From Candidatus Omnitrophota bacterium (GTDB lineage Bacteria; Omnitrophota; Gorgyraeia; Zapsychrales; Zapsychraceae), in NCBI GenBank assembly GCA_020429915.1, contig JAGQKV010000015.1, positions 129,593 through 165,284 of the forward strand: a stretch of 35,692 nucleotides of DNA, read 5' to 3'. Positions 3,815-35,692 of the stretch are shown here, in pieces; positions within the stretch are counted from its first letter, which is position 1; every line of letters begins with the position of its first letter. Both the position numbers and the translations under genes were made by a program. The notes below the pieces were generated by a model. The model saw nothing but the letters and a program-made list of their open reading frames with translations. It had not been told where the DNA came from and did no database searches.

Positions 3815-3824
3815 TCGCTGTGCC

Positions 3825-4625: not shown

Positions 4626-4659
4626 GGTATCTCTCCTTTTGGCAATGATCTGACCATAA

Positions 4660-7160: not shown

Positions 7161-7161
7161 G

Positions 7162-9748: not shown

Positions 9749-9774
9749 GGTGTGCGTGGCCTTTTCGTTACGGT

Positions 9775-14262: not shown

Positions 14263-15006
14263 TTACACGGTCCTTTCTTTCCACGTGAATTTCTCTAGGT
14301 GGGTCCGCAGTGCGGACAGCTTGCGGAATCGTTTGACGATAAGGGATTCTTTGAGTCCGCAGCAAATGTACTTCAATTCCGGGGGAAGCTTGGCATACTG
14401 CTTCGAACCGCCGAGGCAATCGTAAATAATCCGGATCAAACTGCATAAATCATAATTACGGTTGGCGGCCGTAGGCGCGCCCCAGTGAAACATGTCCAGA
14501 AGTTTCAATTCGAATCCCAATCCGTAACGGTTGACGATGACATTGTCCAGGTGGAGATCGCCGTGATATTCATTTTGCAAATGAATCTCCTCCAGCCCCT
14601 TGGTCAGCGCGTACAGCAGATGAATGGCCTGAAACGGGGTCAGCCGCTTGCCGGGGAATTTCTTGATGAATTCCGAGAGCAACTCCCCTTGAACATACTC
14701 GGAAATCAGGACCGTGACGGGGACTCCGTCGAAATAGATCGTTTCCTCGTTATGGTACTGGATCAGAATGTGGCACCGGCGAAGCTTGTGAAGCTTGCGC
14801 GCGTAGAATCGCGAGGCCCGGTTGTTAATATTGCGATGCGGGAAAAACATCTTGGCGGCCCGCTCGATGTCGGTGTTGACTTCGTGGATCCGGTACACTT
14901 CCCCCTCCCACCCTTCGCCGAGTTTATCGACAATCCGGTACTTGCTGAGAAGCGTGTCTCCGGGCTGATAATCAAACGATGTCAGTTTTAATTTAACGTT
15001 CTTCAT
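14263..15006 (-). CDS. Hanks-type Ser/Thr protein kinase, compact
   Basis: 247 residues. Kinase motifs: glycine loop LGEGWEGEVYR (29-39), the catalytic Lys52 in RAAKMFFP, catalytic loop YHGDLHLDN (Asp150, Asn155) and metal Asp171 in LLDMFHWG, a variant of DFG. The HGD catalytic loop resembles the Rio/aminoglycoside-kinase-like or atypical bacterial kinases more than PknB, and the C-lobe is short. No PASTA, transmembrane or sensor region is present. The ATG at 15006 overlaps the upstream M14 gene by 14 bases. Targets are unknown; RimK, the channels and PilT are nearby candidates. Confidence 0.88.
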   Translation of the reverse strand: MKNVKLKLTSFDYQPGDTLLSKYRIVDKLGEGWEGEVYRIHEVNTDIERAAKMFFPHRNINNRASRFYARKLHKLRRCHILIQYHNEETIYFDGVPVTVLISEYVQGELLSEFIKKFPGKRLTPFQAIHLLYALTKGLEEIHLQNEYHGDLHLDNVIVNRYGLGFELKLLDMFHWGAPTAANRNYDLCSLIRIIYDCLGGSKQYAKLPPELKYICCGLKESLIVKRFRKLSALRTHLEKFTWKERTV

Positions 15007-16009
15007 AATCAAACTTGTCGTCGAAATCGGTCAGGCTTTTCTCAACGGAAGATTGTTTGGCAAACGTCGCGATGTGAAATATCGCGTCACCCCGATTGAC
15101 CAGCGGTAATTGGGAATATCCGATAATCAGACCGGATCTCTCCGCGCGGATCTCGATATTGTGATTTCCCAGCGGATCGGAGATGCGCCCCAGCACGTCC
15201 CCTTCGTTCACGATGGAACCCAATCGCTTCTTGATAATGAGGATCCCGCTTTGATCGGCGCGGATCCAGTAGCGGTCTTTGGCGATTATCGGGTCCACGC
15301 GTTTGGTCTTGGCCGTGACCGGGGGAATCATCTCCAACCGTCGCATCACGGCCAGGATTCCCGACAGTCCGCTGCGGATAGCCACTTCGTCGTAGCGCAG
15401 CGCTTCTCCCGCCTCAAAAACCAGCAAGGGGACATTGTGCTTCACCGAAACCTCCCGCAGAGAACCGTCGATGATATCCGCATCCAGTATCACCGGGACA
15501 TCAAATTCCTTGGCCAAGGCGGTAATGTATTTGTCCTGCAGACAGGCCCGGACCTGCGGCAAATTGGTCCGGTGGCGCGATCCGGTGTGGATATCGATGC
15601 CATGCGTGGCATTGCCCATGATTTCCTCGACGAAGATATGCGCCAGCCGGGCCGCCAGCGAACCGTTGGGCGAACCGGGAAAGGACCGGTTAAGATCACG
15701 CCGGTCGGGAAGATAACGGGTGAGGTTATTGAAACCGAACACGTTCACGATAGGCACCGCGATCAGCGTGCCTTTGAGTTTGCGCAGGTATTTGTGGCTG
15801 ATCAGGCGTCGGATGATCTCCACGCCAATTACCTCATCCCCGTGAATGGCCGCGCAGACAAACAGCCGGGGGCCGTCCTCCCGTCCGCGGATCACCCGGA
15901 CCGGCATGTCCAGGTCCGTAAAATCATATTGTTTGGCGACAAAAATGTCGATATCACGGGTTTCCCCGGGACCGATTTGCACGCCATTGATGACAAAGGG
16001 TTCGCTCAT
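14993..16009 (-). CDS. M14-type succinylglutamate desuccinylase/aspartoacylase family protein
   Basis: 338 residues. Zinc ligands and catalytic residues of the AstE/aspartoacylase family: AAIHGDEVIG (His56, Glu59), DLNRSFPG (105-112), GIDIHTGS (His141) and LLVFEAGEA (catalytic Glu199). A C-terminal barrel-like domain (about 240-325) is typical of the group found beside RimK. It overlaps rimK by 4 bases, so it is more likely the partner enzyme of the RimK/RimB modification system than a true AstE, although de-succinylation of succinylglutamate cannot be excluded. Exact substrate is unknown in the literature as I know it. Confidence 0.92.
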   Translation of the reverse strand: MSEPFVINGVQIGPGETRDIDIFVAKQYDFTDLDMPVRVIRGREDGPRLFVCAAIHGDEVIGVEIIRRLISHKYLRKLKGTLIAVPIVNVFGFNNLTRYLPDRRDLNRSFPGSPNGSLAARLAHIFVEEIMGNATHGIDIHTGSRHRTNLPQVRACLQDKYITALAKEFDVPVILDADIIDGSLREVSVKHNVPLLVFEAGEALRYDEVAIRSGLSGILAVMRRLEMIPPVTAKTKRVDPIIAKDRYWIRADQSGILIIKKRLGSIVNEGDVLGRISDPLGNHNIEIRAERSGLIIGYSQLPLVNRGDAIFHIATFAKQSSVEKSLTDFDDKFDYEER

Positions 16010-17178
16010 GTCGTTTTCTTGGCCTTTCTGCGTTTGCGAATGCGGTGTTGTGAGATAAGCGACTTCATGTTCTCGAGTTTACCGAAGCACAACAAGGTGT
16101 CCTCTTCCATTAATTCCCGCTCCGACCGGGGATTGGAAATGGTAACAGTCCCGCGTTTGATGCTCATGACGACGACATCTTTTTCCCGGAAACCCGCATC
16201 ACGCACCGGTTTTCCGATCAAATCGGAATTCTTGAGGATCTGAATCTCGGCGACACCGTAACCCCGGTCCATGGTAAGGCGCTGGCGCAAGTCGATTTCG
16301 GGAAACAGGCTTTGCTCCTCAAGGCAGTCCACCATGGCGCCGGCCACATCGATACTGGTGGCCCGTTCGATGCCTTCCAGTCCCGGCGAGGAATTCACCT
16401 CCATGATCAGGGGGCCGTTCTTGCCTTCCAGCATGTCGACCCCGGCCACGTTCAACCCCATAATCTGGGCGGCGCGGATGGCGGTCCGCTCGAAACGCTC
16501 GTCTATGTTCACCGATTCGACCCGGCCGCCGCGGTGAACGTTGCTGCGAAAATCATCGCCCTGTGCCACGCGACGCATGGCCGCCACCACCTTCCCTCCC
16601 GCGACGATGGCCCGGATATCCGTACCGCGGCTTTCACTGACGAATTTCTGGATCAGCACATTCTGCTTGCTGCTGTGCAGCGTTTCGATGATGGCCTCGG
16701 CGATTTTGTTACTGTCGGCCAGGATCACACCGACCCCCTGGGTTCCCTCGAGCAGTTTGATAACAACCGGCGCGCCGCCCAGTTCCTCGATCGCCGGCAG
16801 GATCGACTGCGGCTGCTTGACGAAGATTGTTTGCGGAAATCCGATATTGTGCCGCGCCAACAACTGCATAGACCGCAGCTTGTCCCGCGACGTGTTGATC
16901 CCGATCGATGAATTCAGGCAAAACGTGCCGATCTGTTCAAACTGCCGCAGGACTGCGGTGCCGAAAAAGGTGATCGAGGCCCCGATCCGGGGAATCACGG
17001 CATCGTAAGACGAAAGCGGTTTGTCTTTGTAAAGCAACTCCGGATTTCCCTGCTCGACGTTGATGGAGAAACTCATGGTGTCCAGGATCCGCACCTCATG
17101 ACCGCGCGCCTTGCAGGCTTCCTTGAGCCGGCGCGTGCTGTACAGGCGGGGACCGCGAGAAAGTATGGCAATCTTCAT
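16006..17178 (-). CDS. rimK: RimK-family glutamate ligase fused to an RCK_C domain
   Basis: 390 residues; E. coli RimK is 300. Residues 1-290 are the ATP-grasp ligase: preATP-grasp MKIAILSRGPRLYSTRRL, PVVIKLLEGTQGVGV (137-151), IQKFVSESRGTDIRAIV, and the Mg/ATP segment GVDMLEGKNGPLIMEVNSSP (246-265). RimK adds glutamates to the C-terminus of ribosomal protein S6. Residues about 305-374 (YGVAEIQILKNSDLIG, VVVMSIKRG, DTLLCFGK) match the RCK_C/TrkA-C fold, a small-ligand regulatory domain of K+ channels and transporters; a basic tail RIRKRRKAKK closes the protein. The fusion implies ligand control of glutamylation. rimB upstream and the M14 gene downstream both overlap by 4 bases. Confidence 0.95.
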   Translation of the reverse strand: MKIAILSRGPRLYSTRRLKEACKARGHEVRILDTMSFSINVEQGNPELLYKDKPLSSYDAVIPRIGASITFFGTAVLRQFEQIGTFCLNSSIGINTSRDKLRSMQLLARHNIGFPQTIFVKQPQSILPAIEELGGAPVVIKLLEGTQGVGVILADSNKIAEAIIETLHSSKQNVLIQKFVSESRGTDIRAIVAGGKVVAAMRRVAQGDDFRSNVHRGGRVESVNIDERFERTAIRAAQIMGLNVAGVDMLEGKNGPLIMEVNSSPGLEGIERATSIDVAGAMVDCLEEQSLFPEIDLRQRLTMDRGYGVAEIQILKNSDLIGKPVRDAGFREKDVVVMSIKRGTVTISNPRSERELMEEDTLLCFGKLENMKSLISQHRIRKRRKAKKTT

Positions 17179-17624
17179 CGTGAATCCTTTAATTTCTTTT
17201 TGGGTTGGCCTAGATAGAAGGAATGGTCGACGTCGACAAGGAAATCATCCTCGATCGCTTTGCGGCCGATGAGCATGCGAAAATTCATGCCCGGCCGTTC
17301 CACCAGATTGACGGTCACCTCTTTGATGACCTTGCCGATCTTAATCGTCGTCTGCACGTACCAGCGGTGCGTCCGGTGACCGATGCTCGACTTCACATGA
17401 CCGCGTTTGACGGATCGCGCGACCATATGGCGACGCCGTTTGGGTTTCAGGTTCAGCACCACATAAAAGCCGATCTTGCCGTGCGGAAGCTCTTCGATAT
17501 CTTCCACGTGCAATGAACAGGTGCGGGCGCCGGTATCGATCTTGGCCCGCAGATCATGAATCCCCCACTCCGGCAAATCCACGTACTCGCGCCAGCCGAT
17601 CACTGTCTTGTCGCTGTTCTTCAC
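17175..17624 (-). CDS. rimB: RimB-like retropepsin-type protease (putative ATP-dependent zinc protease family)
   Basis: 149 residues. The aspartic-protease-like motif LRAKIDTGARTCSLH (catalytic Asp30) and the closing MLIGRKAIEDDFLVDV segment identify the family formerly called DUF785. In Pseudomonas RimB works with RimK on S6 modification. GTG start at 17624, three bases after the corA stop with no independent strong ribosome site, so translation probably depends on corA. It overlaps rimK by 4 bases. Confidence 0.93.
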   Translation of the reverse strand: MKNSDKTVIGWREYVDLPEWGIHDLRAKIDTGARTCSLHVEDIEELPHGKIGFYVVLNLKPKRRRHMVARSVKRGHVKSSIGHRTHRWYVQTTIKIGKVIKEVTVNLVERPGMNFRMLIGRKAIEDDFLVDVDHSFYLGQPKKKLKDSR

Positions 17625-22363: not shown

Positions 22364-23089
22364 CTAGGCGCGCTTGCGGCGACGGACAGCGGCACCGATC
22401 AAACCGCCACTGAACAGCAGCATGGTTGCCGGTTCCGGCACGACCGTCGTGTACTGATTGCTACGGTCATACCAGCCTTGTTTATAAATGGGCAGGCTGG
22501 TTAAATGCCAGTCGTCATCATACTGCGGTCCGTTTGCGCCGGCGACATAAGGATGAAACCAGATCCCGATCATGTCGTCGAATTGGGCGCCGTCCCAATC
22601 CGGAGTGTTCAGGAAGCTGTTGACCGACGCGACGTCGAGCGAGAAACTGAATGTCTTGATATCATTTACGATGGTGACCGTCAAGGCATTGGACCAGGCC
22701 TTAATAAACGGTGAACTTTGGTAACTGTTGGCGCTGTTCACACCGTCGTAAACATACGATGTGATCTTGTTGTTCAGGGCATCGGCGTAGAAGATAGCGT
22801 ACTCATCGACGTTGCTCTTCGGATTTTCTCCGTCGCTGACGACCAGCCAAAATCCGTCGGGATAATGCCCGTTTTGGATATTCCCGGTCTGGCCTTCGGA
22901 AAATGATGCTTTCCACGAGAAGGTCTGCGACTGATCGTTGTACGATGCCCAGATATCCTCAAAAGTCCCGGCCTGATTTTCCCCGGTCGGATTCGGATCA
23001 TGGTAGGCATAGATGGTAGCTTCCGCGGTTTGCGCCGCGCCCGCGGCCAGGCAGGCCGCCATAAGAATGGACAGAAATCTTGCGTTCAC
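22364..23089 (-). CDS. PEP-CTERM sorted extracellular protein
   Basis: 241 residues from a GTG at 23089, which is preceded by a GGGGGGAA ribosome site and puts the signal peptide (NARFLSILMAACLAAG, ending QTAEA) at the N-terminus; an in-frame TTG 11 codons upstream has no ribosome site. The mature region is Asp/Asn/Tyr/Trp-rich and beta-like (about 25-215). The C-terminus VPEPATMLLFSGGLIGAAV followed by RRRKRA is a textbook PEP-CTERM signal: PEP motif, hydrophobic helix, basic end. Such proteins are cleaved by an exosortase (EpsH family) and displayed on or released from the surface, usually with exopolysaccharide. No exosortase is in this window. Own promoter upstream and terminator downstream. 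Confidence 0.92.
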   Translation of the reverse strand: MNARFLSILMAACLAAGAAQTAEATIYAYHDPNPTGENQAGTFEDIWASYNDQSQTFSWKASFSEGQTGNIQNGHYPDGFWLVVSDGENPKSNVDEYAIFYADALNNKITSYVYDGVNSANSYQSSPFIKAWSNALTVTIVNDIKTFSFSLDVASVNSFLNTPDWDGAQFDDMIGIWFHPYVAGANGPQYDDDWHLTSLPIYKQGWYDRSNQYTTVVPEPATMLLFSGGLIGAAVRRRKRA

Positions 23090-23140
23090 GTGTTGTTCCC
23101 CCCGGTTTAGTGTGGTATGCAAGCGGTGAGTTGATGCGAT

Positions 23141-23198: not shown

Positions 23199-26100
23199 TT
23201 AGGCGCCCCCGGGCGCCTGCCGGTCACCCTCAGTTTCATCAGGGGAACCGTTCTCCTCCCCGGTCGCGGCCTTCAGCTCGATATCTTCTTCGATGTCCGC
23301 CGGTACGGTGCGGGTCAGCAACGTCACGAAACCGAACAGCAGTAAGTACATCCAGTTGAGGATGGTCGCCAGGACCATAAGGTAAAAGAACGGATACGCC
23401 ACCAGGGACAGAACCAGGCAAGCGATGAGCGCGTAGGACAAACTGTAATGCAGGAAGGTGCCGAAGGTGTATGGCGGAGAAATTTTTCTCTTGCGGCAAC
23501 GCCAGCGCGTGACCCTGCGCAGCAGGCTGATGCTGATCAGCCCCAGCATCACCCCGGCCAACGGCAGCCCCGAAAACAACGCGGGCAGAAAGATCACGGT
23601 ACATCCGATCAGAAGCCAGTTGGAGTCGGCCAACCGGTAAAAGGCATCCAGCCAGCGAAACCGCCGCAGGCCGGTCCACACTGCCCCGAACGGCGATGAC
23701 ATTTGGCGCAGGCCGAACGCCGTCACCCCGCCGATGATCAACAGGACCAGGTATCCGGCGCGGGCAAAGATCCCGCGTTTGCGGTAAGAGAATTTGAGCT
23801 CCGGATTGCCGCCGAGTTTCTTGAAGGACAACCGCCGTCCCTGCAACGGCAGCGGGATGTCGATCGACCGATAGCCTTTCAGGAGCATACTTTGTTTGAC
23901 CGAGACCGCCTCACTCTTGCCGACGGCATCGAGCTTGGCGCTAACGACCGGCTGCGGGATATTATCCGCCTCGCCTTGCGCGCCCCAAAATTGTTGCGGC
24001 GCCGGCGGGGCTTGCAGGTCGCGGGCGACACGAGACGCGCGTTCACCGGCCCGCTGCGGGGCGCCTCCCCAGAATTCCTGGGCGACCTCCCGTCCGGCTG
24101 CTTCCGTCCGGACCGTTTCCGGCGCCTCCAAACTAGCAACAGCCGCTAACCGCTGGTCCCCCGCGTAACGTCGGCCGTCAAATGCATCCATCTGAACGGC
24201 CCGCTGCTCGCCTTCGTAAACATTGGCAAAGCCGGAAGCGGGCATGACGCTTTGAGGTTCCGCAGCCGGTCCGCCGAGACCCTCGAGCAGGCCCAACTGG
24301 GGATCATAAGAGGATTGTTGAAATCCGCCCACCGCGCGTTGTCTCTGCACCGACCGCCCTTGCTGGGCGGTCACAGAAATATCCATCTGCACGTTGGGAT
24401 CGTACTGGCTCGTCTGAAAGCCTCCGCCGACCATCTGAACCTGCGGCGCGGCGTTCATGACCTGCTGTTGCCGGGCAACCTGCTGCTTGTGATCCTCAAC
24501 GCTGAGATAATTGCTGACCTGTTCCTGCACTTCGTCCTGCGCGCCGTAGCCCGCCGTCTTAAAGCTCCACCCCTTGACATTGCGGCGCTGGGAATAGACT
24601 TTTTCCTTGGACTTACCGCGGACCCGGGTCTCACGGGGCACCGCCTGGTTGGTCTGAATGATCTGATCGGCCTCGCTCAGTATCTGGGCATTCTTCATCT
24701 GGGCGCTTTGCACGATCTTCTGATTGAATTTCTTGTTACCCACGCGTTGCTCAAGCTCTGTCTGCGCCGACGTGTAAGCGCTGTATTGATCGCCGATATC
24801 GTCGATCACCTTCTGCCGGCTGCGCATGACTTTCTGCTTAAGCTCGCCTTTGGAGGAAGAAGCCAGCCCGGTCAGATACTTCAATTCCTTGGCCAAATCA
24901 AGGTACTTGTCGGCCTCGATCATGGAAATGTCGACCTCCTCGGCATTGGACTTGAAGTCTCCCACATGATAATTCTCGGGGACGAACATGGTCATCGTGG
25001 TCTTCTCGACCGGAATGTTGTCGATCTTCAGCAGCCCCAGACCGACGCGTCCGGAAAGGCCGAGTTTCTTGATCGGAACGACATAAACGATCTTAATCTC
25101 AAAACTGCGGTCCCCGGCTCCGCTCTTGATCAGCGGGATGAGATAGCGGTCCAGCTTTTTTCCGGACGGCTGACGGGAAGCCTTGACCGACTCACCGGCG
25201 ACTTTAAGACTCCACAGGTTCGCCTCCTTGGGCAGCTCTACCGGCAAAAATTGAAGTGTGCGGTTATTGATACTCATCACCGTTTCATATTGCACGTAAC
25301 CTGAGGGGATCACCTGAATCGTGATATCCTGACGCAGGATATTGGCTTTCACCAGCTTTTCCCGGGCCAACCGTGTCAAATCGAGCCGGTAGCTCCACGG
25401 ACTCCCGCCCGCGGCCCGGTAAGCCCACAAAATATCATTGAGATCGACGCCTTCCGGCAAGGCCGGGATACTGTCAGGCTCGACATTTATCAAGGCGGTC
25501 GTTTCACTGGAGTCCACCTGGTAGGCGGTGTCGGCGGCCACCGATATGAACTCGGTGCGATTGCGCGCCTGCGGAAAGACAATCTGCGGCATCACAAAGG
25601 TCTGGCGCTGGTCGAAATATTTTTTGAAAGATACCTGCAGCAGGTACGACCTGTCGAATTTGGTCAAGAGATTGATCCGGACCGCCACCAGCTTGCCGTC
25701 CTTGACCGGCTTTTTAAGCACGGTGTTGATATTGTCCCCGTCGACGCTGATTGCGTCGCTGATATCGGCGGGAATGATCATATCGATGTGATCGACCGGT
25801 GCGGCCTTGACGGTGAACAGGCTCAACAGCTTCACGTCGACCAGACTGTCTTCGACCGTCGCGTGGTAAACCTTGACGGCATCGATGACCGGTTCCTCAC
25901 GCGCGATGTCATAGACCGCGGCGTAATGAGTCGCACGGATCTCATACCCGTAGCTGGCATCGAACTGATGAATTTCCTGCTGCGCGGAAACCGCCGGACG
26001 CACATTCGCAGACTTCAACCCCTCACTCGACCTTTCAGTCACCTCGTAACCACGCGGGAAGTAGACCGCGACGCGGCCGGTCTGTTTTTCCACTCCCTCT

Positions 26101-29100
26101 ACCACGATGCTTTCAATCGCAACTTCCGTCGCGGATGCCAATTCCCGCGACAGGGTTAGCCGGAAACTGTACTTTCCTTTAACGCCGCCGAACAACGGCA
26201 GGGTCAGTTGGTTTCCCTGACGCGTGTATCCTGATGAAAGCGGCGCGTCCAGCCTGTCAACGCGCTGCCCCTCCGGGATGATGATCGTGATGGTGGACAG
26301 TTTGTTCTTTTTAATATCCAGCTCCGTATGATACGTGGACACCAGCAAATCATCCTGGATCCGGTGCTCGGAATTCACCGTGGCGGTCATGCGTCGCTCC
26401 TCTTCGCTCACGCCGATCCGGGCCGCAAAATCCGCGTTTAAAAAGGAGTAGCTCTTCTTCAGCACCAGCCCGCGTTGTCCGGGCTGCCGCGTAGACTGCA
26501 TCGCTGCCGGCGTCAATCCCTCCAAACCGCTCAACATAAGGCGCCTGTCTTCTTCCGCGAAAAGATTGAGGTGACCGCGCACACGCTCGGCCTCCGCCGG
26601 CGCCAGAAAGACCGTCATCACTTCCGCACCCGGAGTCACCGGACGGCGGGCCTCGACGGTAACCTGGGCATGGTCCGCAATCTCCTGTTTGAACTGCACT
26701 CGCAACAGATTCTTTCCTCCCTCGGTGACCATTTGCCAGCTGCGGACGTTGCCGGACAAAACATCCGTGATCATGGTGTCGGCCGGGACCCGGAAATCAA
26801 GGGCGGCGATGGAGGACTTTTCCACGCGGATATCCACATCCTGCCGCACGCGGATTTCATCATAGGTCAGTTCGGTATCCACCTGGCAATCCGCGTAGAT
26901 CAAAGGCTTTTCGGACTTCTTGAGGTATTTGCGGGGAAACCACGACAGGCTCACCGCACCGTCGGCGGCCGGTGCGGCCTGCAGCGTCACGCTGCTACCG
27001 GTCTCATCCAAAAAGTACGCGGCCCCGGAATCGGACAAATCGACAAATATATCCCGGCTTTGAAAATCGATCGCCAGTTGACTGAACGGTGTCGGCGGGT
27101 ACCGGAACGCCACAGATTTCTTGCCCAGCTCCGACTTGACCTCGGCGTGAAAGACGACGTCGATGCGATGGTACCCGGCGCCGTAGACCGGGAGTTCATA
27201 AAGATTCTGACGGTCGGCCGCCGGAGCACCCCCTTTGACAGCGCTTGCTACGGGCGCGGTAGAGACACGGACCGGAACAGCATTGCCGTCCAGCTTCATC
27301 TGCTCCACGAACACATTCTGAAACGGCAACCGCATCAGGACCCAGTCTTTCTCCGTGTTGACAAAAGCGTCGATCCGGGCCGTCATCAACAACTGATCCT
27401 CCGCCCATTTCCCGTCGACGGTGATGGTCGCCAGATGATACTCGCTCAATCCGGTCAGACGCGGGTCAGGATCATATGGCGGGTCCGCCAGCATCTTGAG
27501 CGCGAAATAATCCGCGGTGGGAATATAGACCGGCTCGGTACCGGCGAGCGGATCCGTCGTTTCCCCGAGGGGGATATACACGGCCACATCGGGAAATGTC
27601 GCTGCTATTTCTCCGGCCTGGACCGGTTTGACAGACCACAGCGGCAGCAGCACAAAGGCGACGCAGATTCCCAATCCGAATTTTGCGGAGGCCTTCTTTA
27701 ACGAGCCGGCTAAAATATACAGCAATGCAAACAGTAAAGCACCGGCTACCGCCCCGTTAAAGAGAAAGACGTATGACTGCAGGGCGATCAGCGGCGCGAA
27801 CGTCCCGCCGATCAGCACGGCCACACAATACATAAACGGCGTCATCAGCCGGCGCGCCTGCAGGAAGAATCCCAGCGCAAGGAACAAGAGTGCGACCATC
27901 GCGCTGAGTACCCGTTCCCGTCCGCCGGCCAGAAACGTCAATGCCAGCCGGCTGTCGCCCCACAATTTCTGCGCCGACACATGAATCCCTTCCTGCGGCA
28001 TCTGAATGCTCAAAGACAATAGTCCTTTCTTGCGGCCGTAACTGACCGCCGGCGCGGACGGCTTTTTCGCGGCCGCCGCGTCCTTGTCGACGGCATAGTC
28101 CGTCCTCAAGTAGTATGGTTCGTACTGGACAGACGAGGCCATCTTTTTCTCGAGCATGACTTCGTCGGCAGTTTCCCGGTAGCGGGCCTGCGGCATCCGC
28201 TTGGCCACGGCCCCGCTGATGCCGGACACACTGGTATTCCCGGCGGTAAACTGATCACCGATATCGTCCGCCGCGCTCTTCAAACGTCCCTGGACTCGAC
28301 TCGCAAACGGATGCGTACCTCCCACCAACCGCTGCAAGTTACGCCACACCGTCTTAAAGGCATCTCCGAAGAACCGGCTCAACAGCGGTTTTTGCGGCTT
28401 GATCAACGGCAGTTTCTCGAAATTACCCTTCACGTTGAGCAACGCGTAGTCCGGCGGATAGTAAATGCGCAGCGTGGATTCCAGGACAGGCATGCCCAAT
28501 TGCGGGCTCCGCACCCGGATATGCTCAAAGACACCCAACCCGTTGCCCTTGGGAAGCTGCCCGGTGATCCTGAGATTGATGTCTCCGTCGCTGTCGACCG
28601 GAAGCGGGATATACAGCCGACGGTCCGCTCCCTTGCGCGGCTTGATGCCCTTGTCCTGAACGGTAGCACCCCATAAGACAAATCCGGCGGGCAGGTCGAT
28701 TTGCAGGTACTGCTGATTGGTATTGCGGACGATGTAGCTGCCTTCAAAGAAAATCTGCGACTCGGTGTCAAACGTGTACGACAGCGTTTCGCTGCGGATC
28801 AACGCGGCCAGAACAGGGAGTTCCTCCATCCGTTTAACAGCCATCCGGTACGTATACGGTTGCGTAAAATAACGCAGTGTCTCAATAATCCGGTTAGACG
28901 GCTCATAGGACGGCCACGCCGGCAGCTCATAGGTTTCCACTTCGCTGAGACCCTGTTTTTCCGTTGTGATCTCCGTATTCTTGCTGGCCTCCAGCACCAT
29001 GTAACCCGTGTCATTGCTGACGTCGAGCGGTATCACCAGGGGCACCGCGGCAAAGGCGTCGAACTGGGTGATCTTCTTTTGGAAGTCCACCGTCAACTGG

Positions 29101-31226
29101 TACGCAGCGGCGGTTTCCTCCTGCAAGACCACGGCCCATATAACGTGCTGCTTGAGATCAAGGCCCGCCGGGATCTTGATTTCACCGGCGACAGCTTCCA
29201 GGGGGACTTGCTTCTTCTCTTTTATTTGGCCGCCCTCGATGTTGACCTTGCTGCCGTCCCACGCCGGGATCGCGAAATAAAACCGGTCCTGGGTTCCCGC
29301 GGTGATTTGATATCGCAAATAGACATTGGCGCGCAGCAGGTCTTCATCGACCGCGACGTAGCTGACCGTCTCGGAGGTCTGCTCGGCCCGGCGCCGAGAA
29401 ACCGTGAGCTTGGCGTGCGGGGCCGGAACACGGTACAGATAGTTCATCGCCTTTGTCCCTTCACGCTGCGGCTGCACGATCAAATAATCCTCCGCCGGGC
29501 GGTAACCGTCCAGCCGGACGTCTTCAAGCAACAGCTCGTCATCGACCTCCACACGTAGTGTTCCCGCCACACGTTCGGCCGGCGCGTAGGTAAAGTTCGG
29601 CACCTCAAACGTGCGGGCACCCGCCCGTAAATCGTCCTGATCCACCGGCTGTTCAGCTTTAACCACGATCGACACGATATCCGCGGGCCGTACCGGATGC
29701 CAAATAGACACGAGCAAGGCCCCACGCTCCTTGTCGTGGTGGTGATCCTCGGCAACCGTCTGCTGATTGACAAAGACCTGCAGATCCTTGACGCGAAAAT
29801 CGGCGGACAAGGGAAACTCGTAGCGGGCCGTCCCTTCATCCAATCCGGTCAGGTTTAACGTTGACTGAAACGTCATCCGTTCCTTGCTCAATTGCAACAG
29901 GTTATACTGTGCCAGTTCGACTTCCCTCGGGACCGGCACCCGGTTCATCGTCAAGGCATACGGTAAGTTATAGAGGTGATAACGCCGGAACAGATAATAG
30001 CCCGGTTTGGCCGGCGGCTGCGCGTTGCCTGCGGACACCGGCCGCAGATGCGCCGCGTTCGCCACTTCGACACGCACGTTGGCATCATAGTAAACGGACA
30101 GTTGCCCCTGCCGGTCGACGGCGTCAAGCAGTCGGACATCGGTGAAGTCATACGGCGCCAGCGGATCATCCCGATAGCGGTAGAGATCCACGGTAAAACG
30201 GACAATGCCGGTCACGGCAATATTAAAATCCAGATGCAAGACATCGTGGTCCGGCAGCTCCCTCCGGGACCATCCCGCCACACCCTTGCCGGTGACCGCG
30301 TGGACCTGCATATCCTTGGGAACGGCGACTTGCACGCTGTCGACGGTATCGTTGCGAACGTCCACCACGAACTCGGCGCTGAGTTCGCTGAGATCCTCGC
30401 TGAGATAGACCCGGTGCTGTTCGTTGGCGTAGAGCTGAACAGTCCGTACCGAGCTGGAACGACGGTTCTCGACGCGCACGCTCAGGACATCGGACCGGCC
30501 CAGGAAGGCAATCGATTTGTTGCTTTGTTCCCCCTTGATCGTAGTGGCGAATTGGGCGCCGGGGAACGTGATGTCATAAAACGGTTCGGCGGTGATGCGG
30601 ACTTGATTGAGTAATGTCGGCGGGATTTTAAAACTGGTGGTGGAGACCTTGTCACTCAGGGTTAACGGTGACAGAAAACGGACGGTCAGACGATGACTCC
30701 CCGGTCCGGAGATTTTGACGGCCGGCTGATTGTTCTGCCAGAAAATATGCGCCTCGGCGCCGTTCCACTCCGCCGTCAGATAGCGCACGCCGTTCAGCGG
30801 CAACGGCAGTATTTGTTCTTCTTCGGTGTACTGGACAATGCGATACTCAACGGTGAAAGCGAGGACATCTTCCCGGACCGCCGCGCTGTATTCCGCCTCG
30901 ACGATCCGCGGCGCCTGCCAGCCTCCGGGCACTTCACTTTCACTCAGTTTTTGATCATAAGCCGCACGCGCCCGGCGGTAGAGGTCGTCGTATTCTTTAT
31001 GGGGAACGAATATCCCTTCAGGGGCCTGTTGCAGAACGGCCGGCCAGGCATCCTGTGGAACATGGATAATATTTTCCTGCGGCGGCCTCGCGGGGAGATT
31101 CGGCGCGATCATCTCCCGGGCGTGACCCTTTGCCGGCAGTATCCCCATGAGTACGGCCAGCGCTGCGGCAACCAGCGGCCGATGCCTCTCCCTTGCTCCC
31201 GGCATTTGGCGGACGGCAAACTTCAT
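23199..31226 (-). CDS. Giant 2675-residue envelope protein with two copies of a large beta-rich module
   Basis: Starts three bases after the previous stop; GGGGAG in the last codons of that gene serves as ribosome site. Signal peptide at 17-36 (basic N-region, then VAAALAVLMGILPAKGHA). First module (about 65-1180): entry GIFVPHKEYDDLY, then beta-rich repeats, RYFTQPYTY (785-793), ESTLRIYYPPDYALL, GLLSLSIQMPQEG (1068-1080) and three membrane helices (about 1106-1175). Residues 1178-1206 look like a second signal peptide (KKASAKFGLGICVAFVLLPL, ending VQAGE). Second module (1207 on): PVYIPTADYFALK (1232), SPWSYRLDL, a helical region (2100-2190), a Gln/Pro/Ala-rich repeat region (2240-2425), SIDIPLPLQG (2454-2463), about five membrane helices (2487-2640) and an acidic tail. 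It resembles the upstream 1096-residue protein. No enzyme motif or known family is recognised. It is probably an inner-membrane-anchored periplasmic scaffold or assembly protein; this is inference. Confidence 0.9.
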   Translation of the reverse strand: MKFAVRQMPGARERHRPLVAAALAVLMGILPAKGHAREMIAPNLPARPPQENIIHVPQDAWPAVLQQAPEGIFVPHKEYDDLYRRARAAYDQKLSESEVPGGWQAPRIVEAEYSAAVREDVLAFTVEYRIVQYTEEEQILPLPLNGVRYLTAEWNGAEAHIFWQNNQPAVKISGPGSHRLTVRFLSPLTLSDKVSTTSFKIPPTLLNQVRITAEPFYDITFPGAQFATTIKGEQSNKSIAFLGRSDVLSVRVENRRSSSVRTVQLYANEQHRVYLSEDLSELSAEFVVDVRNDTVDSVQVAVPKDMQVHAVTGKGVAGWSRRELPDHDVLHLDFNIAVTGIVRFTVDLYRYRDDPLAPYDFTDVRLLDAVDRQGQLSVYYDANVRVEVANAAHLRPVSAGNAQPPAKPGYYLFRRYHLYNLPYALTMNRVPVPREVELAQYNLLQLSKERMTFQSTLNLTGLDEGTARYEFPLSADFRVKDLQVFVNQQTVAEDHHHDKERGALLVSIWHPVRPADIVSIVVKAEQPVDQDDLRAGARTFEVPNFTYAPAERVAGTLRVEVDDELLLEDVRLDGYRPAEDYLIVQPQREGTKAMNYLYRVPAPHAKLTVSRRRAEQTSETVSYVAVDEDLLRANVYLRYQITAGTQDRFYFAIPAWDGSKVNIEGGQIKEKKQVPLEAVAGEIKIPAGLDLKQHVIWAVVLQEETAAAYQLTVDFQKKITQFDAFAAVPLVIPLDVSNDTGYMVLEASKNTEITTEKQGLSEVETYELPAWPSYEPSNRIIETLRYFTQPYTYRMAVKRMEELPVLAALIRSETLSYTFDTESQIFFEGSYIVRNTNQQYLQIDLPAGFVLWGATVQDKGIKPRKGADRRLYIPLPVDSDGDINLRITGQLPKGNGLGVFEHIRVRSPQLGMPVLESTLRIYYPPDYALLNVKGNFEKLPLIKPQKPLLSRFFGDAFKTVWRNLQRLVGGTHPFASRVQGRLKSAADDIGDQFTAGNTSVSGISGAVAKRMPQARYRETADEVMLEKKMASSVQYEPYYLRTDYAVDKDAAAAKKPSAPAVSYGRKKGLLSLSIQMPQEGIHVSAQKLWGDSRLALTFLAGGRERVLSAMVALLFLALGFFLQARRLMTPFMYCVAVLIGGTFAPLIALQSYVFLFNGAVAGALLFALLYILAGSLKKASAKFGLGICVAFVLLPLWSVKPVQAGEIAATFPDVAVYIPLGETTDPLAGTEPVYIPTADYFALKMLADPPYDPDPRLTGLSEYHLATITVDGKWAEDQLLMTARIDAFVNTEKDWVLMRLPFQNVFVEQMKLDGNAVPVRVSTAPVASAVKGGAPAADRQNLYELPVYGAGYHRIDVVFHAEVKSELGKKSVAFRYPPTPFSQLAIDFQSRDIFVDLSDSGAAYFLDETGSSVTLQAAPAADGAVSLSWFPRKYLKKSEKPLIYADCQVDTELTYDEIRVRQDVDIRVEKSSIAALDFRVPADTMITDVLSGNVRSWQMVTEGGKNLLRVQFKQEIADHAQVTVEARRPVTPGAEVMTVFLAPAEAERVRGHLNLFAEEDRRLMLSGLEGLTPAAMQSTRQPGQRGLVLKKSYSFLNADFAARIGVSEEERRMTATVNSEHRIQDDLLVSTYHTELDIKKNKLSTITIIIPEGQRVDRLDAPLSSGYTRQGNQLTLPLFGGVKGKYSFRLTLSRELASATEVAIESIVVEGVEKQTGRVAVYFPRGYEVTERSSEGLKSANVRPAVSAQQEIHQFDASYGYEIRATHYAAVYDIAREEPVIDAVKVYHATVEDSLVDVKLLSLFTVKAAPVDHIDMIIPADISDAISVDGDNINTVLKKPVKDGKLVAVRINLLTKFDRSYLLQVSFKKYFDQRQTFVMPQIVFPQARNRTEFISVAADTAYQVDSSETTALINVEPDSIPALPEGVDLNDILWAYRAAGGSPWSYRLDLTRLAREKLVKANILRQDITIQVIPSGYVQYETVMSINNRTLQFLPVELPKEANLWSLKVAGESVKASRQPSGKKLDRYLIPLIKSGAGDRSFEIKIVYVVPIKKLGLSGRVGLGLLKIDNIPVEKTTMTMFVPENYHVGDFKSNAEEVDISMIEADKYLDLAKELKYLTGLASSSKGELKQKVMRSRQKVIDDIGDQYSAYTSAQTELEQRVGNKKFNQKIVQSAQMKNAQILSEADQIIQTNQAVPRETRVRGKSKEKVYSQRRNVKGWSFKTAGYGAQDEVQEQVSNYLSVEDHKQQVARQQQVMNAAPQVQMVGGGFQTSQYDPNVQMDISVTAQQGRSVQRQRAVGGFQQSSYDPQLGLLEGLGGPAAEPQSVMPASGFANVYEGEQRAVQMDAFDGRRYAGDQRLAAVASLEAPETVRTEAAGREVAQEFWGGAPQRAGERASRVARDLQAPPAPQQFWGAQGEADNIPQPVVSAKLDAVGKSEAVSVKQSMLLKGYRSIDIPLPLQGRRLSFKKLGGNPELKFSYRKRGIFARAGYLVLLIIGGVTAFGLRQMSSPFGAVWTGLRRFRWLDAFYRLADSNWLLIGCTVIFLPALFSGLPLAGVMLGLISISLLRRVTRWRCRKRKISPPYTFGTFLHYSLSYALIACLVLSLVAYPFFYLMVLATILNWMYLLLFGFVTLLTRTVPADIEEDIELKAATGEENGSPDETEGDRQAPGGA

Positions 31227-31229
31227 GAC

Positions 31230-34200
31230 CTACTCCCCGCCGCCCTGCTTCTTCTTAAATAAATTCCCCTGCCTGAGTTTGGTGAACAGCAGATACCCCA
31301 TGCACGCCGCGACCGCGATGATCATCAAGGCGCCGAAAAGTTTGAAGCCCTGCGGCAGCAAAACGTTAAGCACCAGGATGGCGGCCAGGAAGATCGTCAT
31401 ATTCCGTTTGCGCCGCGCTTCGGGCTGAGTGTGAATCCGCATAAACAGCCAACCGGTTAAAGCCAGCACCACCAGACAAATCGGCCACACCGCGTCGCGT
31501 TTCACGTAACCGACTTTCAGATAGGCATTCTTGTCGAGCTTTGAGAAACGGAACATCTGCCCTTCGCGCACGATGTCGATGTCCAGACCGTACAACGTAG
31601 GTTCATCGTTCTGCCGGGGGATCTTCTGGCCCTCGAGGCGCACGCGCTGCTGACCGCGCACGACCTGCGAACGGACAGCTGATTCCAGCAACGGCTGGGG
31701 CCCTTCGTAGCGGTCCGGATTCATCGAACCGTGCATCCGCGGATAACTGTAGTCGCGCGGTAAGAACAACCGCCAGGTGATCTTGGAGGTCGGAATATCA
31801 CCGAACTCCGCGTTTTCCACGCGCAGACCGCCCAGGAAGCCGAACTTCTTCTTGACCTTGGTCTGATAAATAATCCGCAGTGTAAACTCCTGACCGGGGT
31901 TGATGTCCTTCGGCAGCATCACGATCTTCTCCCGATCGTTCTTACCGATGGAAATGCTGGCCTTTTTACCCGAAATAAACACGGCATAGATCTTGTCGGT
32001 GCCTTCGGGCATGGTCAGCGCCAGGCTCTGGCGGTTGGTGTTCATGATCCGGAACACCCCTTCGGTCTTGGCCACACCTTCCTTGGACAGGACGATGTCG
32101 AAGTGGGCCTGGTTAACCACCGCATCCAAGACCTTTTCATACTCGTGCTTGGTGGTGATGAGCGCCAGCCGGTAGGGGTGGCTGAGATAACGGAACGCCA
32201 GGACGCTTTGCGCACGGTTGACGTTTCCGGGTAATTCCTTGGTATCGATCGGCTCCAGGTTACTTTCTTCGGACTCGACCTGTAAAGTCGGACTCTTGCC
32301 GACAGCGATGACACCCGATTCATTGAAGACGTTCTTAACAACGACCGGAGGCAGTTCAATACCGCGCTGTTCCCCGATCTTGATGGACGGCAGTTTCTGT
32401 TCCAGGGTCACGTTGAGAACAAAGTTATTCAGGACCGGCGAATGCAGCGCCACCGTCCAAGTGCCGACACCGGTCTTGGGATCAACGGACAAACGCTTCT
32501 CTTTGATATTGTTGCCCGTAATCACTGCGTCCTTGGCCACTGCGGCCGGGTACTGGACCTGAAACTGACTCACCGGCGCGTACAGGACCTGATAGTTAAT
32601 GGTGTCGTTGACTTTCATCGCCGTCTCTTGAATATCGACGACGCGCACCACCTGGGCAATGATTTTAGTCTCGCGTTTGTTGACGTTCAGCCGCGAGGCA
32701 TAGTCCGTAGTCGAATAACGGTAACCGGCCGCCATTTCATTCTTGGGATCGCGCACGCGAATGCCGATCGCCTGCAGTTCCTCCAGACTCATCGGTCGCA
32801 GCGAACGCATATCCTCGGTGGTGAGCTTGAGATTCTTGCGCAATGCCAGGGCGATCACCCCTTCGTCTTTTTCCGCCTCCAGATTGATGAGCTTCGGCAG
32901 ATCGATGGCGAGGTCTTTGTCTTCCTTGTCCGCCTCGAGGTGCACCGGCAGTGCGAATTCGCCCATGGCCTTGTTCTTCAGGACGACCGTCAACACGGGT
33001 TGTCCCTCTTCGTCCGCGACATCATAGCTGTCGACCGTGGCTTCATTGCCGACCTCCACAACCCGGAAACCGTCGGGCATGGCAAAACGGAATTTGAACA
33101 CACCGGCGTCTTTCACGGTAAACTTGGCATAGGCGTAGTAGTCGATGATGGTCTCGGAAAACGCCACAAGGACCTGCTGGTCGACAGTAATCTTCGGCTC
33201 GATCTTGGATATGGCCAGCGCGATCGTGTACGGCCGGCGGAAGTATTTAAAAGCGGATACAAAATTGGCGAAGTTGATCCGCCCGTGCAACTCACGCGGA
33301 TCGATCTGGGTCACCCGCTCTTTCTTGTCGACCTGCACGCGCAGCGTGGGCTCGGCCTTGATGATGATCTCGCCGTCCTCCCGTTTGGCATCGATCACCT
33401 CAAATTGCGGAACGGTAAATGCGGCTTCATCCATATCCCGGTAACGCTCGGTGCTGATCGCGAAGGCGAAGTTATCTTCCACTTCCTCATACAAGTTGAC
33501 GGTCAGCACTCTGTCGTCCGCGAGGTCCCAGTCCTTGATATTCTTTCCGTCCACACTTACCAGGCTGATCCCCTCCGGAATGCGGACCCGAAACGACTCG
33601 GCCTTGTTCTGCACCACCGAAATATTGATCCCCGTATCGATCTGGTAAACGGACTCCTTAACGAAGATTTCGCTGGTGACCTTGGCAAAGAACACGCTCT
33701 GCTGGTCTTCATCATCCACGCTTTTCGCCAGCCAGCGGACATTGACCTTGCCTTCCGGGGAGAGAAAGGCGGAAAACTGCGTGCTGTCACCGGAGACCGT
33801 GCTCTTTTGCGACAGCATAGGCTCAATCTTGACATCGAGATCCGTTCCGGGGATGCGCATGTCGAGTTTGGTCAACGGCGAAGACGGGATCTGAAAAGCG
33901 ACAAATTTCTCGCCCGGCGCCGTGCTGACCTTGGTGGAAAAACTCATCTTAAGGTCGTACTCGCCTTTTTTCGGCAGCACCAGCTCCAGACCGCCCGGAG
34001 CGGCGTTGATCAGCGGTGTCTTGCCGTCAATGGACAGGGCCGTGACCGCAATGTCATTCACGTTCAGGATCAGCTTCGCCCATTCTTCCTTGAGGGCCGA
34101 TACGCGAAGTGTCGCCTCGAATTCCGCCAATTCTTCGGAGACAGTCCCGGTGTATTCCGCGCGGATAATGGCCGCCTCTACCGGCGGCGGCGGGACTTCG

Positions 34201-34520
34201 TCCTCCGGTTCGGTCTGGGTGGCGGCCTCCCACAGCTTCAGGAAATCCGAATACGGGATGTAAACGCCTTTATCTGCGCCAGTAAAAATCGTGTCGAGCT
34301 TTTCATAGGGGACGTACACCTTGCTTTGCGTCACGTGCGGCGCCTTGGTCTTGGCGATCCGGCGTTGTATCAGCTTCTGTCCGGCGGCACGGTCGGCCTC
34401 CTGAGCGGCTTGGGCCGCTTCTACGACCCCAGCCGGTTGGTCGGCACGCGTAGCCGCCCGGGCCGACGGCACCGGCAGCAGCAGGCATACGGTCAAATAT
34501 AAAAGGAATAACTTTTTCAT
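31230..34520 (-). CDS. 1096-residue membrane-anchored periplasmic protein, single-module relative of the giant protein
   Basis: GGGGGGAGATT ribosome site before the ATG. Signal peptide 1-22 (MKKLFLLYLTVCLLLPVPSA). After an Ala/Gln-rich linker come two copies of a short motif, KVYVPYEKLDTIF (67-79) and GVYIPYSDFLKLW (85-97), then a long beta-sandwich-like region with internal repeats: AFKYFRRPYTIALAISK (423-439) and AFRYLSHPYRLALITTK (775-791). LYGLDIDIVREGQMFRFSKL (976-995) precedes three membrane helices (about 1011-1027, 1041-1056, 1061-1079) and a basic C-terminus. No catalytic motif is seen. Most of the chain should be periplasmic, tethered by its C-terminus. It is co-transcribed with the giant gene (3-base gap). 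I do not recognise a characterised family. Confidence 0.92.
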   Translation of the reverse strand: MKKLFLLYLTVCLLLPVPSARAATRADQPAGVVEAAQAAQEADRAAGQKLIQRRIAKTKAPHVTQSKVYVPYEKLDTIFTGADKGVYIPYSDFLKLWEAATQTEPEDEVPPPPVEAAIIRAEYTGTVSEELAEFEATLRVSALKEEWAKLILNVNDIAVTALSIDGKTPLINAAPGGLELVLPKKGEYDLKMSFSTKVSTAPGEKFVAFQIPSSPLTKLDMRIPGTDLDVKIEPMLSQKSTVSGDSTQFSAFLSPEGKVNVRWLAKSVDDEDQQSVFFAKVTSEIFVKESVYQIDTGINISVVQNKAESFRVRIPEGISLVSVDGKNIKDWDLADDRVLTVNLYEEVEDNFAFAISTERYRDMDEAAFTVPQFEVIDAKREDGEIIIKAEPTLRVQVDKKERVTQIDPRELHGRINFANFVSAFKYFRRPYTIALAISKIEPKITVDQQVLVAFSETIIDYYAYAKFTVKDAGVFKFRFAMPDGFRVVEVGNEATVDSYDVADEEGQPVLTVVLKNKAMGEFALPVHLEADKEDKDLAIDLPKLINLEAEKDEGVIALALRKNLKLTTEDMRSLRPMSLEELQAIGIRVRDPKNEMAAGYRYSTTDYASRLNVNKRETKIIAQVVRVVDIQETAMKVNDTINYQVLYAPVSQFQVQYPAAVAKDAVITGNNIKEKRLSVDPKTGVGTWTVALHSPVLNNFVLNVTLEQKLPSIKIGEQRGIELPPVVVKNVFNESGVIAVGKSPTLQVESEESNLEPIDTKELPGNVNRAQSVLAFRYLSHPYRLALITTKHEYEKVLDAVVNQAHFDIVLSKEGVAKTEGVFRIMNTNRQSLALTMPEGTDKIYAVFISGKKASISIGKNDREKIVMLPKDINPGQEFTLRIIYQTKVKKKFGFLGGLRVENAEFGDIPTSKITWRLFLPRDYSYPRMHGSMNPDRYEGPQPLLESAVRSQVVRGQQRVRLEGQKIPRQNDEPTLYGLDIDIVREGQMFRFSKLDKNAYLKVGYVKRDAVWPICLVVLALTGWLFMRIHTQPEARRKRNMTIFLAAILVLNVLLPQGFKLFGALMIIAVAACMGYLLFTKLRQGNLFKKKQGGGE

Positions 34521-34949
34521 AATCTCCCCCCGGGATTAAAGTTAGGAATAGACAATAATATGTGTGATTCGATAATAGGCTTGGGGCGGGACCACGCGCC
34601 CGGCACACGTCCGGCGGCGGTAATCGAGGGCTTTGAGTTCTGCTTCAAAATGATCATTAATTGTTCTTGTTGATAGGCTTAACAAGAGCTCAACAGAAAC
34701 TTGCTAGTATTCAACCACGAACACGTGGACATGGCAAGCGTTTATTCGGTCCTCCGCTTGAGTTGCGCGAGGACTGGGGGATTAAACGGTGGATTGGGAA
34801 AAAAGTTACAAATTGGATAAGGGCGAGTTGGGATTTGTGATTGGGGATTAGGGATTTGAACAGTTTGCTTTCGGGACAATCAATAATTGCTCAAGAAATT
34901 CTCCGTTATAACACATCGGGCAATCTCCCAAATCCCGAATCACCAATCA
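34521..34949. other. Gene-free 429-base region between hemA and the envelope-protein operon
   Basis: No supported gene on either strand. It contains the 5' leader of the 1096-residue gene (TATTAT boxes near 34579 and 34560 on the minus strand could be -10 elements, but no convincing -35 is seen), the inverted repeats at 34665-34687 and 34715-34728, and most of the inverted-repeat element at 34837-34950. It is more AT-rich than its surroundings. Confidence 0.5.
34665..34687. repeat. Inverted repeat with 7-base arms, candidate operator
   Basis: TCTTGTT, nine bases, AACAAGA, about 145 bases upstream of the envelope operon. A second short one (CCACG-aaca-CGTGG variant, 34715-34728) lies just beyond. 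Could be regulatory sites for the operon. Confidence 0.35.
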
Positions 34950-34950
34950 C
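34837..34950. repeat. 114-base MITE-like element with 21-base terminal inverted repeats
   Basis: Left arm 34837-34857 (GTGATTGGGGATTAG...) and right arm 34930-34950 are inverted copies with two mismatches. The right end touches the last base of the hemA stop codon. No clear target-site duplication is visible; the arms are built of GGGATT-like units, so a simple-repeat origin is an alternative to a mobile element. Confidence 0.5.
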
Positions 34951-35692
34951 TATATGGAGTACGAAAATACAAAATACGGAAGCACCCGCTCGTCGTAACC
35001 GGTTTCATTGCGCAGCTTGCGTTTGAGTTCGTGCATCTTGGAATCGATCAGCTTATTAACCGCCGCTACCGCTGAGCGGCGTTTATTCAAATTTTCCCGA
35101 ACGATCGCACTCAGGTCATCGATCTTGAACAACTTCACACCGGGCAGATCGCCGACGGCCGGTTCAATATTACGGGGCGTGGAGATATCAATACAAATCA
35201 ATTCCCGATGGCGCCGCTGCCGCATCACCGGGGCCATATAGTCACGACTGAGCAGATAGGAACCCGCGCTGGCCGAGACAATGCACAAGTCGACCCGGCC
35301 CATTATTTTGTAGAGGTCCAAATAAGAGTAGGCGCGCCCGCCAATCCTGGCCGCCAGGGTCTCGGCCTTTTCCCGGGTCCGGTTGACCACATAGGTGTCG
35401 CCCGCGCCTTTCCGCTGCAGCTGCGATGCGGTCAGCTCACTCATTTTACCTGCTCCGATAATGAGGATCGATCGGTGCCCCAATTCGCCCAGTGCCCGCT
35501 CCGCCATCTGGACCGCGGCCCAACTGACCGACGCTCCGCCGCAGCTAATGGATGTCTCGACCTGGGCCTTCTTTCCGGCCCGGATCACGGTCTGCGTCAG
35601 CAAATTGAAGTCGCGGGCAAGCAGCCCTTCTTCCCGTGACATCTCCACCGCCGCCTTGACCTGTCCGAGGATCTGTTTCTCCCCGATCACCA
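34950..35692 (-). CDS. hemA: Glutamyl-tRNA reductase, 3' part (5' end outside window)
   Basis: 247 codons are visible, beginning within the catalytic domain at VIGEKQILGQVK. The NADPH-binding domain is clear: ILIIGAGKMSELTASQLQRK and VVNRTREKAE, followed by CIDISTPRNIEPAVGDLPG. The enzyme reduces glutamyl-tRNA to glutamate-1-semialdehyde, the first step of C5 tetrapyrrole synthesis. After the linker helix (LNKRRSAVAAVNKLIDSKMH) only about 20 residues remain, ending YFVFSYSI; the usual C-terminal dimerisation domain of roughly 70-100 residues is missing. The stop abuts an inverted-repeat element. Short HemA forms exist, so loss may be natural or due to element insertion. Confidence 0.93.
   Translation of the reverse strand, partial: VIGEKQILGQVKAAVEMSREEGLLARDFNLLTQTVIRAGKKAQVETSISCGGASVSWAAVQMAERALGELGHRSILIIGAGKMSELTASQLQRKGAGDTYVVNRTREKAETLAARIGGRAYSYLDLYKIMGRVDLCIVSASAGSYLLSRDYMAPVMRQRRHRELICIDISTPRNIEPAVGDLPGVKLFKIDDLSAIVRENLNKRRSAVAAVNKLIDSKMHELKRKLRNETGYDERVLPYFVFSYSI

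Follow-up and report, generated by a model that had tools for sequence, protein, structure and literature searches.

Genes A and B of the window

The window analysed here is a stretch of 35,692 nucleotides at one end of a contig (JAGQKV010000015.1, assembly GCA_020429915.1) in the 3.35 Mb genome of a Candidatus Omnitrophota bacterium. On its minus strand lie two large genes, termed A and B (Table 1). Both are open reading frames, they are separated by 3 nt, and a G-rich stretch is found ahead of each start. The product of B holds two modules, termed B1 and B2. A and both halves of B are homologous over their ectodomains and constitute three old copies of one large module. Searches of sequence databases indicate that A and B belong to an undescribed family of this phylum, without a name in the databases searched.

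With A as query in its own genome, both B halves are found at E-values of 9.8e-41 and 2.7e-28 and 22% identity. Profiles of orthologues were compared with hhalign, whose E-values here are pairwise and refer to a database of one: A aligns with B1 over 1006 columns (E 7.9e-42) and with B2 over 855 columns (E 2.7e-33), and B1 aligns with B2 over 861 columns (E 1.8e-23). The corresponding scores are 345, 280 and 203. Reversed targets gave 21.2, 23.5 and 20.6 for the same pairs, and the best of 10 column shuffles gave 22.6, 27.6 and 27.2. Because the real scores of 203–345 stand against a control maximum of 27.6, the three-copy signal is not due to chance. The original prediction, made from the sequence alone, had claimed that the two genes share one module in three copies, and both the genome search and the controlled profile comparison bear this out.

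That prediction also listed six ordered landmarks. The first four, i.e., the entry motif, a beta segment ending in hydrophobic-Gly, a (V/I)P...V.G..(I/V)..W segment and a PY/PW motif, were seen by eye to be in register in a multiple alignment. With the third landmark it was overlooked that its unit recurs inside each copy. The last two, a segment just before the membrane and the membrane helices themselves, are in register between A and B1; the B2 rows of the alignment end earlier, and the B2 copy of these landmarks became visible when the tails were compared alone (A/B2, E 2.5e-5; B1/B2, E 1.4e-5; A/B1, E 6.1e-4). A linker of some 330 Gln/Ala-rich residues stands between the B2 ectodomain and its pre-membrane and membrane part.

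Domain plan, topology and predicted fold

Comparison of the A profile with itself reveals a unit of ∼167 residues, termed R, in three copies, the best off-diagonal match having an E-value of 1.2e-12. Single-domain probes trace the plan N-R-R-R-C in A, B1 and B2, and thus the A-B pair comprises 15 such domains. Short relatives of the family, represented by a profile of 16 sequences, have the plan N-R-C. The family is unnamed and was detected in 40 of 384 genomes sampled from a large uncultured phylum; it now has a defined domain plan, and an evolutionary series can be given that consists of one R unit, three R units and a tandem pair with 15 domains.

Table 1. Genes A and B and their parts (positions in the window; residues of the respective protein)
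Feature	Position	Strand	Residues	Basis or remarks
Gene A: signal-like helix, then an N-R-R-R-C ectodomain, a pre-membrane segment and three membrane helices at the C-terminus	31230..34520	(-)	1096 in all	
A entry motif GVYIPYSDFLKLW	34230..34268	(-)	85-97	in register with B1 and B2
A N domain	33693..34184	(-)	113-276	hhalign
A repeat R1	33195..33692	(-)	277-442	self-comparison, E 1.2e-12
A repeat R2	32685..33194	(-)	443-612	self-comparison and domain probes
A repeat R3	32256..32684	(-)	613-755	self-comparison and domain probes; probe reached 785, overlapping C
A C domain	31716..32255	(-)	756-935	domain probes; landmarks PY and N.(Q/R).L...P lie here
A pre-membrane segment and three membrane helices	31233..31592	(-)	977-1096	hydropathy, tail comparison
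Gene B: two modules in a single chain	23199..31226	(-)	2675 in all	
B1 N domain	30474..30905	(-)	108-251	domain probes
B1 three R repeats	28947..30437	(-)	264-389, 441-559, 619-760	second found by one probe, E 8.5e-4
B1 C domain	28413..28946	(-)	761-938	domain probes
B1 linker, motif RVQGRLKSAADDIGDQF	28047..28349	(-)	960-1060	common to four short relatives
B1 four membrane helices	27630..27911	(-)	1106-1199	hydropathy; would bring the chain back outside
B2 N domain	26901..27419	(-)	1270-1442	domain probes
B2 three R repeats	25482..26900	(-)	1443-1573, 1610-1761, 1804-1915	domain probes
B2 C domain	24942..25481	(-)	1916-2095	domain probes
B2 long Q/A-rich linker	23892..24899	(-)	2110-2445	
B2 pre-membrane segment and C-terminal membrane helices	23307..23891	(-)	2446-2640	hydropathy, tail comparison

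Hydropathy analysis of A displays a signal-like N-terminal helix and three C-terminal helices. B has a signal-like N-terminus and four helices behind each of its two modules, and the one short form examined has a signal-like N-terminus and a single C-terminal helix. These counts are approximate, since threshold calls differ among orthologues: A of locus L007 has no called N-terminal helix and A of L031 has two C-terminal helices, while B of L031 has three internal helices and B of L007 two extra ones. Four helices behind module 1 would place both B modules on the same, outer side of the membrane. The original prediction spoke of a secreted or periplasmic surface machine. The signal-like N-termini and C-terminal membrane helices agree with its extracytoplasmic, membrane-anchored part; the words ‘machine’ and ‘surface’ are conjecture.

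The ectodomains are probably predominantly beta, as predicted from hydrophobic periodicity. Strand-like periodicity is raised in A, B1, B2 and the short form (z +4.0, +4.6, +3.0 and +4.1, respectively) and helix-like periodicity is in deficit (z −2.6, −4.0, −2.5 and −1.6). Proteins of the window that served as controls gave strand and helix z-values of −1.5 and +2.8 (CorA-like), 0.0 and +0.8 (ATPase), and +0.1 and +0.7 (aminotransferase). Chou-Fasman averages over the proteins did not discriminate secondary structure. Among 34 sequences of the C domain three columns are invariant, all of them Pro.

Relation to known families

A and B have no match above curated cut-off, and none with a convincing E-value, in Pfam, NCBIfam, PHROGs and PADLOC. 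Short forms likewise show none above cut-off in Pfam (16 scanned) or in PADLOC and PHROGs (two scanned). Searches of the PDB, among them profile searches with the whole module and the C domain, gave no convincing match. The statement of the original prediction that no characterised family is recognisable therefore stands. The family was not found described in a literature search, an absence that is not proof.

A and B might instead be remote members of a known beta-sandwich family, e.g., VIT of the inter-alpha-trypsin inhibitor heavy chain, with only the arrangement being new. The whole-module profile has one weak match to ITIH4 (E 0.11), in a search whose top match was an acyl carrier protein (0.064), and there are scattered weak Pfam matches to beta-sandwich families, such as that to CarboxypepD_reg in two of the 16 members (best E 0.043). 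However, with the profile built from 34 C domains there is no match to any PDB chain at E up to 5, and ITIH4 is not reproduced. Moreover, A, B and the short forms lack a VIT match in Pfam, and the lowest Pfam E-values of the short forms belong to unrelated families below cut-off (V_ATPase_I, 0.0033; DUF5385, 0.0034). Membership in a known beta-sandwich family is rather unlikely. VIT homology in particular, which came down to a single weak ITIH4 match that was gone with the C-domain profile, was rejected.

Directly downstream of B, at 22364-23122 of the window, lies a gene for a PEP-CTERM protein (PF07589). The PF07589 motif was not found in A, B or the scanned short forms. A link of the family to PEP-CTERM proteins was considered and dropped: the neighbour of B matches and one L042 protein two genes off has a similar C-terminus by eye, and these form no pattern.

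Distribution and history of the copies

Genome counts given here take in the genome of the window. In a sample of 286 genomes from across the phylum, A has matches at E up to 1e-5 in 25, and the short-form profile also has matches in 25. The C-domain profile matched 41 of 384 genomes of relatives at E up to 0.001; 40 were kept, G184 being left out as a chance match (a 25-amino-acid frame with ten stops inside). A short frame of 536-824 amino acids, in some cases cut by contig ends, is present in 28 of the 40 family-bearing genomes, and the family is thus wider than the gene pair of the original prediction.

The pair itself does recur, which was proposed as a check at the outset: among the 82 genomes from the order, four (G000, G188, G220 and G136) have a full-length A with an intact B next to it, B having 2626, 2691 and 2641 amino acids in the three other genomes. 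L006 and L007, which seem to be identical with contigs of G136 and G188, were counted once with them. A further locus, L005, has A and a B that is cut by the contig end, and G159 has a frame of 998 amino acids, located at the beginning of a contig, that clusters with B2 of G220 (100/99). G220 and G159 additionally carry a short form. With starts picked mechanically, the longest A and B frames overlap in L006 and L007, and 13 nt separate them in L031 and L005.

Two other genomes of the same genus were examined at the site of the window; the downstream flank has no counterpart there and the upstream flank has only a 37-base match in one. A scan of contigs with A, which detects close relatives only, found three named relatives, in records of Candidatus Omnitrophota and Candidatus Auribacterota. 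A plasmid search gave no family match. There may be similar sequences in other phyla.

In a C-domain tree of 34 sequences A, B1 and B2 each form one clade (100/99, 100/100 and 100/100), in keeping with the proposed evolution by duplication. Because each copy is one clade across genomes, the copies seem to have separated before the genomes that carry them and then to have been kept together. The four long single-gene forms make up one side of a branch at 94/75. A single clade of A, B1 and B2 has a p-AU of 0.439; the branches are long, and the tree program warned that they meet.

The B1 linker provides another clue to origin. Each of the four genomes with an intact pair has a motif of the RGVQGRLKSAxDDIGDQF kind in B1, and the motif recurs in four of the 16 short forms (L037, L048, L049 and L050), all from families f1 and f4 of the order to which the window belongs. 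A search for the pattern in A, the long single forms and the cut B of L005 gave no match. That the motif is common to B1 and these four short forms suggests that B1 may have arisen from a short form of this kind.

Gene neighbourhoods

The context sample consisted of 26 fetched stretches (one of them, L052, a flank of the window without the family), 17 more, and L005 to L007; the neighbourhoods of G259, G398 and G456 lie outside it. In families f31, f20 and f70 genes for an extracytoplasmic function (ECF) sigma factor and a zf-HC2 anti-sigma factor are found upstream of the short gene on the same strand at 11 of 12 loci, the exception being L044. A gene for an M48 peptidase lies upstream of the sigma gene in nine of the 11; L051 is without one and the L114 stretch is too short to show it. 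Pfam names four sigma factors, four anti-sigma factors (including that of L043) and two M48 peptidases at the linked loci; the others were assigned by profiles built here, and HExxH is present in the six M48 sequences behind the M48 profile. At nine of the 11 loci the anti-sigma and family frames overlap or are no more than ∼0.6 kb apart. An open reading frame lies between the two in L051 and ∼3 kb in L114. At E up to 0.001, the zf-HC2 match is the sole one in the genomes G146 and G266 and one of two in G059. The intact-pair genomes hold four, four, two and two zf-HC2 matches, none beside the pair.

These sigma and anti-sigma neighbours of some family members are new here, provide the strongest clue to function that the neighbourhoods gave, and offer a testable functional lead. 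Short forms with the linkage in f20 and f31 were joined in the first tree (95/91) but came apart in the larger. On this tree of 51 sequences, where f20 is apart from f31 and f70, two changes are required to explain the linkage, which is therefore either old or arose twice.

Apart from these loci, an M48 peptidase gene without a sigma factor is found beside one long form (L033), and a weakly similar one (E 1.9e-6) is near the short form of L049. A sensor-kinase/response-regulator-like cluster, obtained by single linkage and named by eye, is present in nine of 30 clustered stretches and belongs to a common large superfamily. No recurrent neighbour of the A-B pair was seen by eye: hemA is upstream of it in the window, a MoxR-DUF58-transglutaminase cluster in G220 and other genes elsewhere. 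The cluster, at L031 3556-7812, encodes a MoxR-type AAA ATPase, a DUF58 protein and a transglutaminase-domain protein in a row, and is divergent from the pair.

Some single neighbours may be recorded. An ARPP-1 (PF20208) gene directly follows the long form of L033 (13531-14589), and in L046 the short family gene begins within the frame of a DUF4139 protein (7700-9115). Related large proteins, cluster 30, are encoded near the G188 pair (L028 9999-13550) and directly after the G159 short form (L048 11921-14653); the L028 protein has no match in Pfam.

Possible functions

The reading tentatively preferred here, and one that is quite possible, is that the family consists of periplasmic beta proteins anchored in the inner membrane, which have a structural or binding, non-enzymatic role and serve envelope homeostasis. 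Each copy would be a rod of N, one or three R, and C domains, behind which come a linker, the conserved segment ahead of the membrane and between one and four membrane helices. The rods would stand behind a signal-like N-terminus or, in the case of B2, behind the B1 helices, and would lie in the periplasm tethered at the inner membrane, where they may bind or brace envelope components rather than act as enzymes, in keeping with the small number of invariant residues in the C domain. A and B may be made from one transcript and assemble as a complex of 15 domains. The dose or occupancy of such a membrane-tethered scaffold or binding rod might be coupled to the state of the envelope, and where a switch occurs, sigma and anti-sigma factors are encoded alongside, in most cases together with a membrane M48 protease.

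Several observations weigh against this picture. Co-assembly of A and B is a suggestion from gene order only. The pair of the window and the other pair loci have no adjoining sigma, anti-sigma or M48 gene, and 30 of 43 family-bearing stretches lack these neighbours, some of the stretches being short or half-loci. Neither of the two further genomes from the genus has the family, which is therefore probably dispensable. The beta fold is derived from periodicity alone, with three window-protein controls of which none is a known all-beta protein, and the A domains R2, R3 and C are weak singly (strand z 1.1, 0.2 and 0.7). In addition, the C domain has one Asn and one Gln that hardly vary among the 34 sequences, which leaves room for a catalytic or ligand role.

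RpoE-RseA-RseB and AlgU-MucA-MucB are envelope stress operons. They resemble the f31, f20 and f70 loci in having genes for an ECF sigma factor, an anti-sigma factor with a hydrophobic stretch and an extracytoplasmic protein in a row. This raises the question of whether the family protein is a sensor-regulator like RseB/MucB, which would bind the periplasmic part of a transmembrane anti-sigma factor and control its cleavage, the M48 peptidase being a possible processing enzyme; A and B would then be an expanded version acting on another target. The position directly after sigma and anti-sigma genes is that of the short gene at 11 of the 12 loci and not that of the window's pair. The close or overlapping anti-sigma frames speak for such a role, as do the anti-sigma proteins themselves, which by eye have a hydrophobic stretch with a long tail behind it, and the kinase/response-regulator-like genes noted above. 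There is also a precedent in the binding of MucB to the periplasmic part of MucA, which is reversed by lipids (PMC7400510).

However, the part of the anti-sigma factor beyond the helix is poorly conserved, the sigma cluster is absent from most of the stretches, and a mere sigma-regulated output would show an identical gene order. RseB and MucB chains are absent among the PDB profile matches. The protein also differs from RseB in being membrane-anchored, with about 640-800 amino acids and no RseB sequence match, and the arrangement differs from RpoE-RseA-RseB in that an M48 protease is usually upstream and that the window's pair is without sigma and anti-sigma genes. A sensor-regulator role is on balance rather unlikely. 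Similarly improbable is its extension to an unnamed Omnitrophota envelope-sensing system, where a membrane-anchored beta-domain protein would read the state of the envelope and feed an ECF switch processed by an M48 membrane protease, with the A-B pair as an amplified, triplicated sensing rod uncoupled from a local switch. If sensing were nonetheless to prove true, the family would supply a new input protein for ECF envelope signalling.

Another thought is that A and B are surface adhesins or contact proteins for an attached or predatory life, as was proposed for giant proteins of Omnitrophota. Passages of PMC10066038 describe giant open reading frames of more than 20 kb in this phylum, one class of which has mostly membrane helices and large extracellular parts, and some of which carry adhesion domains. 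A and B are similarly large with few annotated domains, have membrane helices and come from the same phylum; a patchy distribution and the long Q/A-rich linker of B2 would also suit an adhesin. However, B spans 8 kb, and one class of the giant frames is called poorly conserved in those passages (PMC10066038), whereas a fixed repeated plan and identifiable orthologues are found here. A, B and 16 short forms have no adhesion-domain match in Pfam, the C-terminal multi-helix anchors seen by hydropathy point to the inner membrane over the cell surface, and in several genomes the short form lies, by eye, amid housekeeping-like genes. An adhesin is accordingly quite improbable.

The proteins might also assist an export or wall-building complex, their beta rods spanning the periplasm from the inner membrane. 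Such a role would fit the multi-helix anchors, the long linkers, the tight gene spacing and the MoxR cluster divergent from the G220 pair, but is very unlikely given that this cluster occurs at one of the five pair loci for which the flank on the A side was read (window, L005, L027/L007, L029/L006 and L031) and that no exporter or wall enzyme recurs in the neighbourhoods read by eye.

Other features of the window

Between hemA and gene A, at 34821-34952, the window has a dispersed intergenic repeat, in which no inverted repeat was found. Nine short matches to it, with 80-94% identity, are found on six other contigs of the same genome. By eye, 1648-9781 contains genes like those of the arginine succinyltransferase pathway together with a formyltetrahydrofolate deformylase-like gene, and at 14993-17624 a RimK-like ATP-grasp gene adjoins RimB-like and aspartoacylase-like genes.

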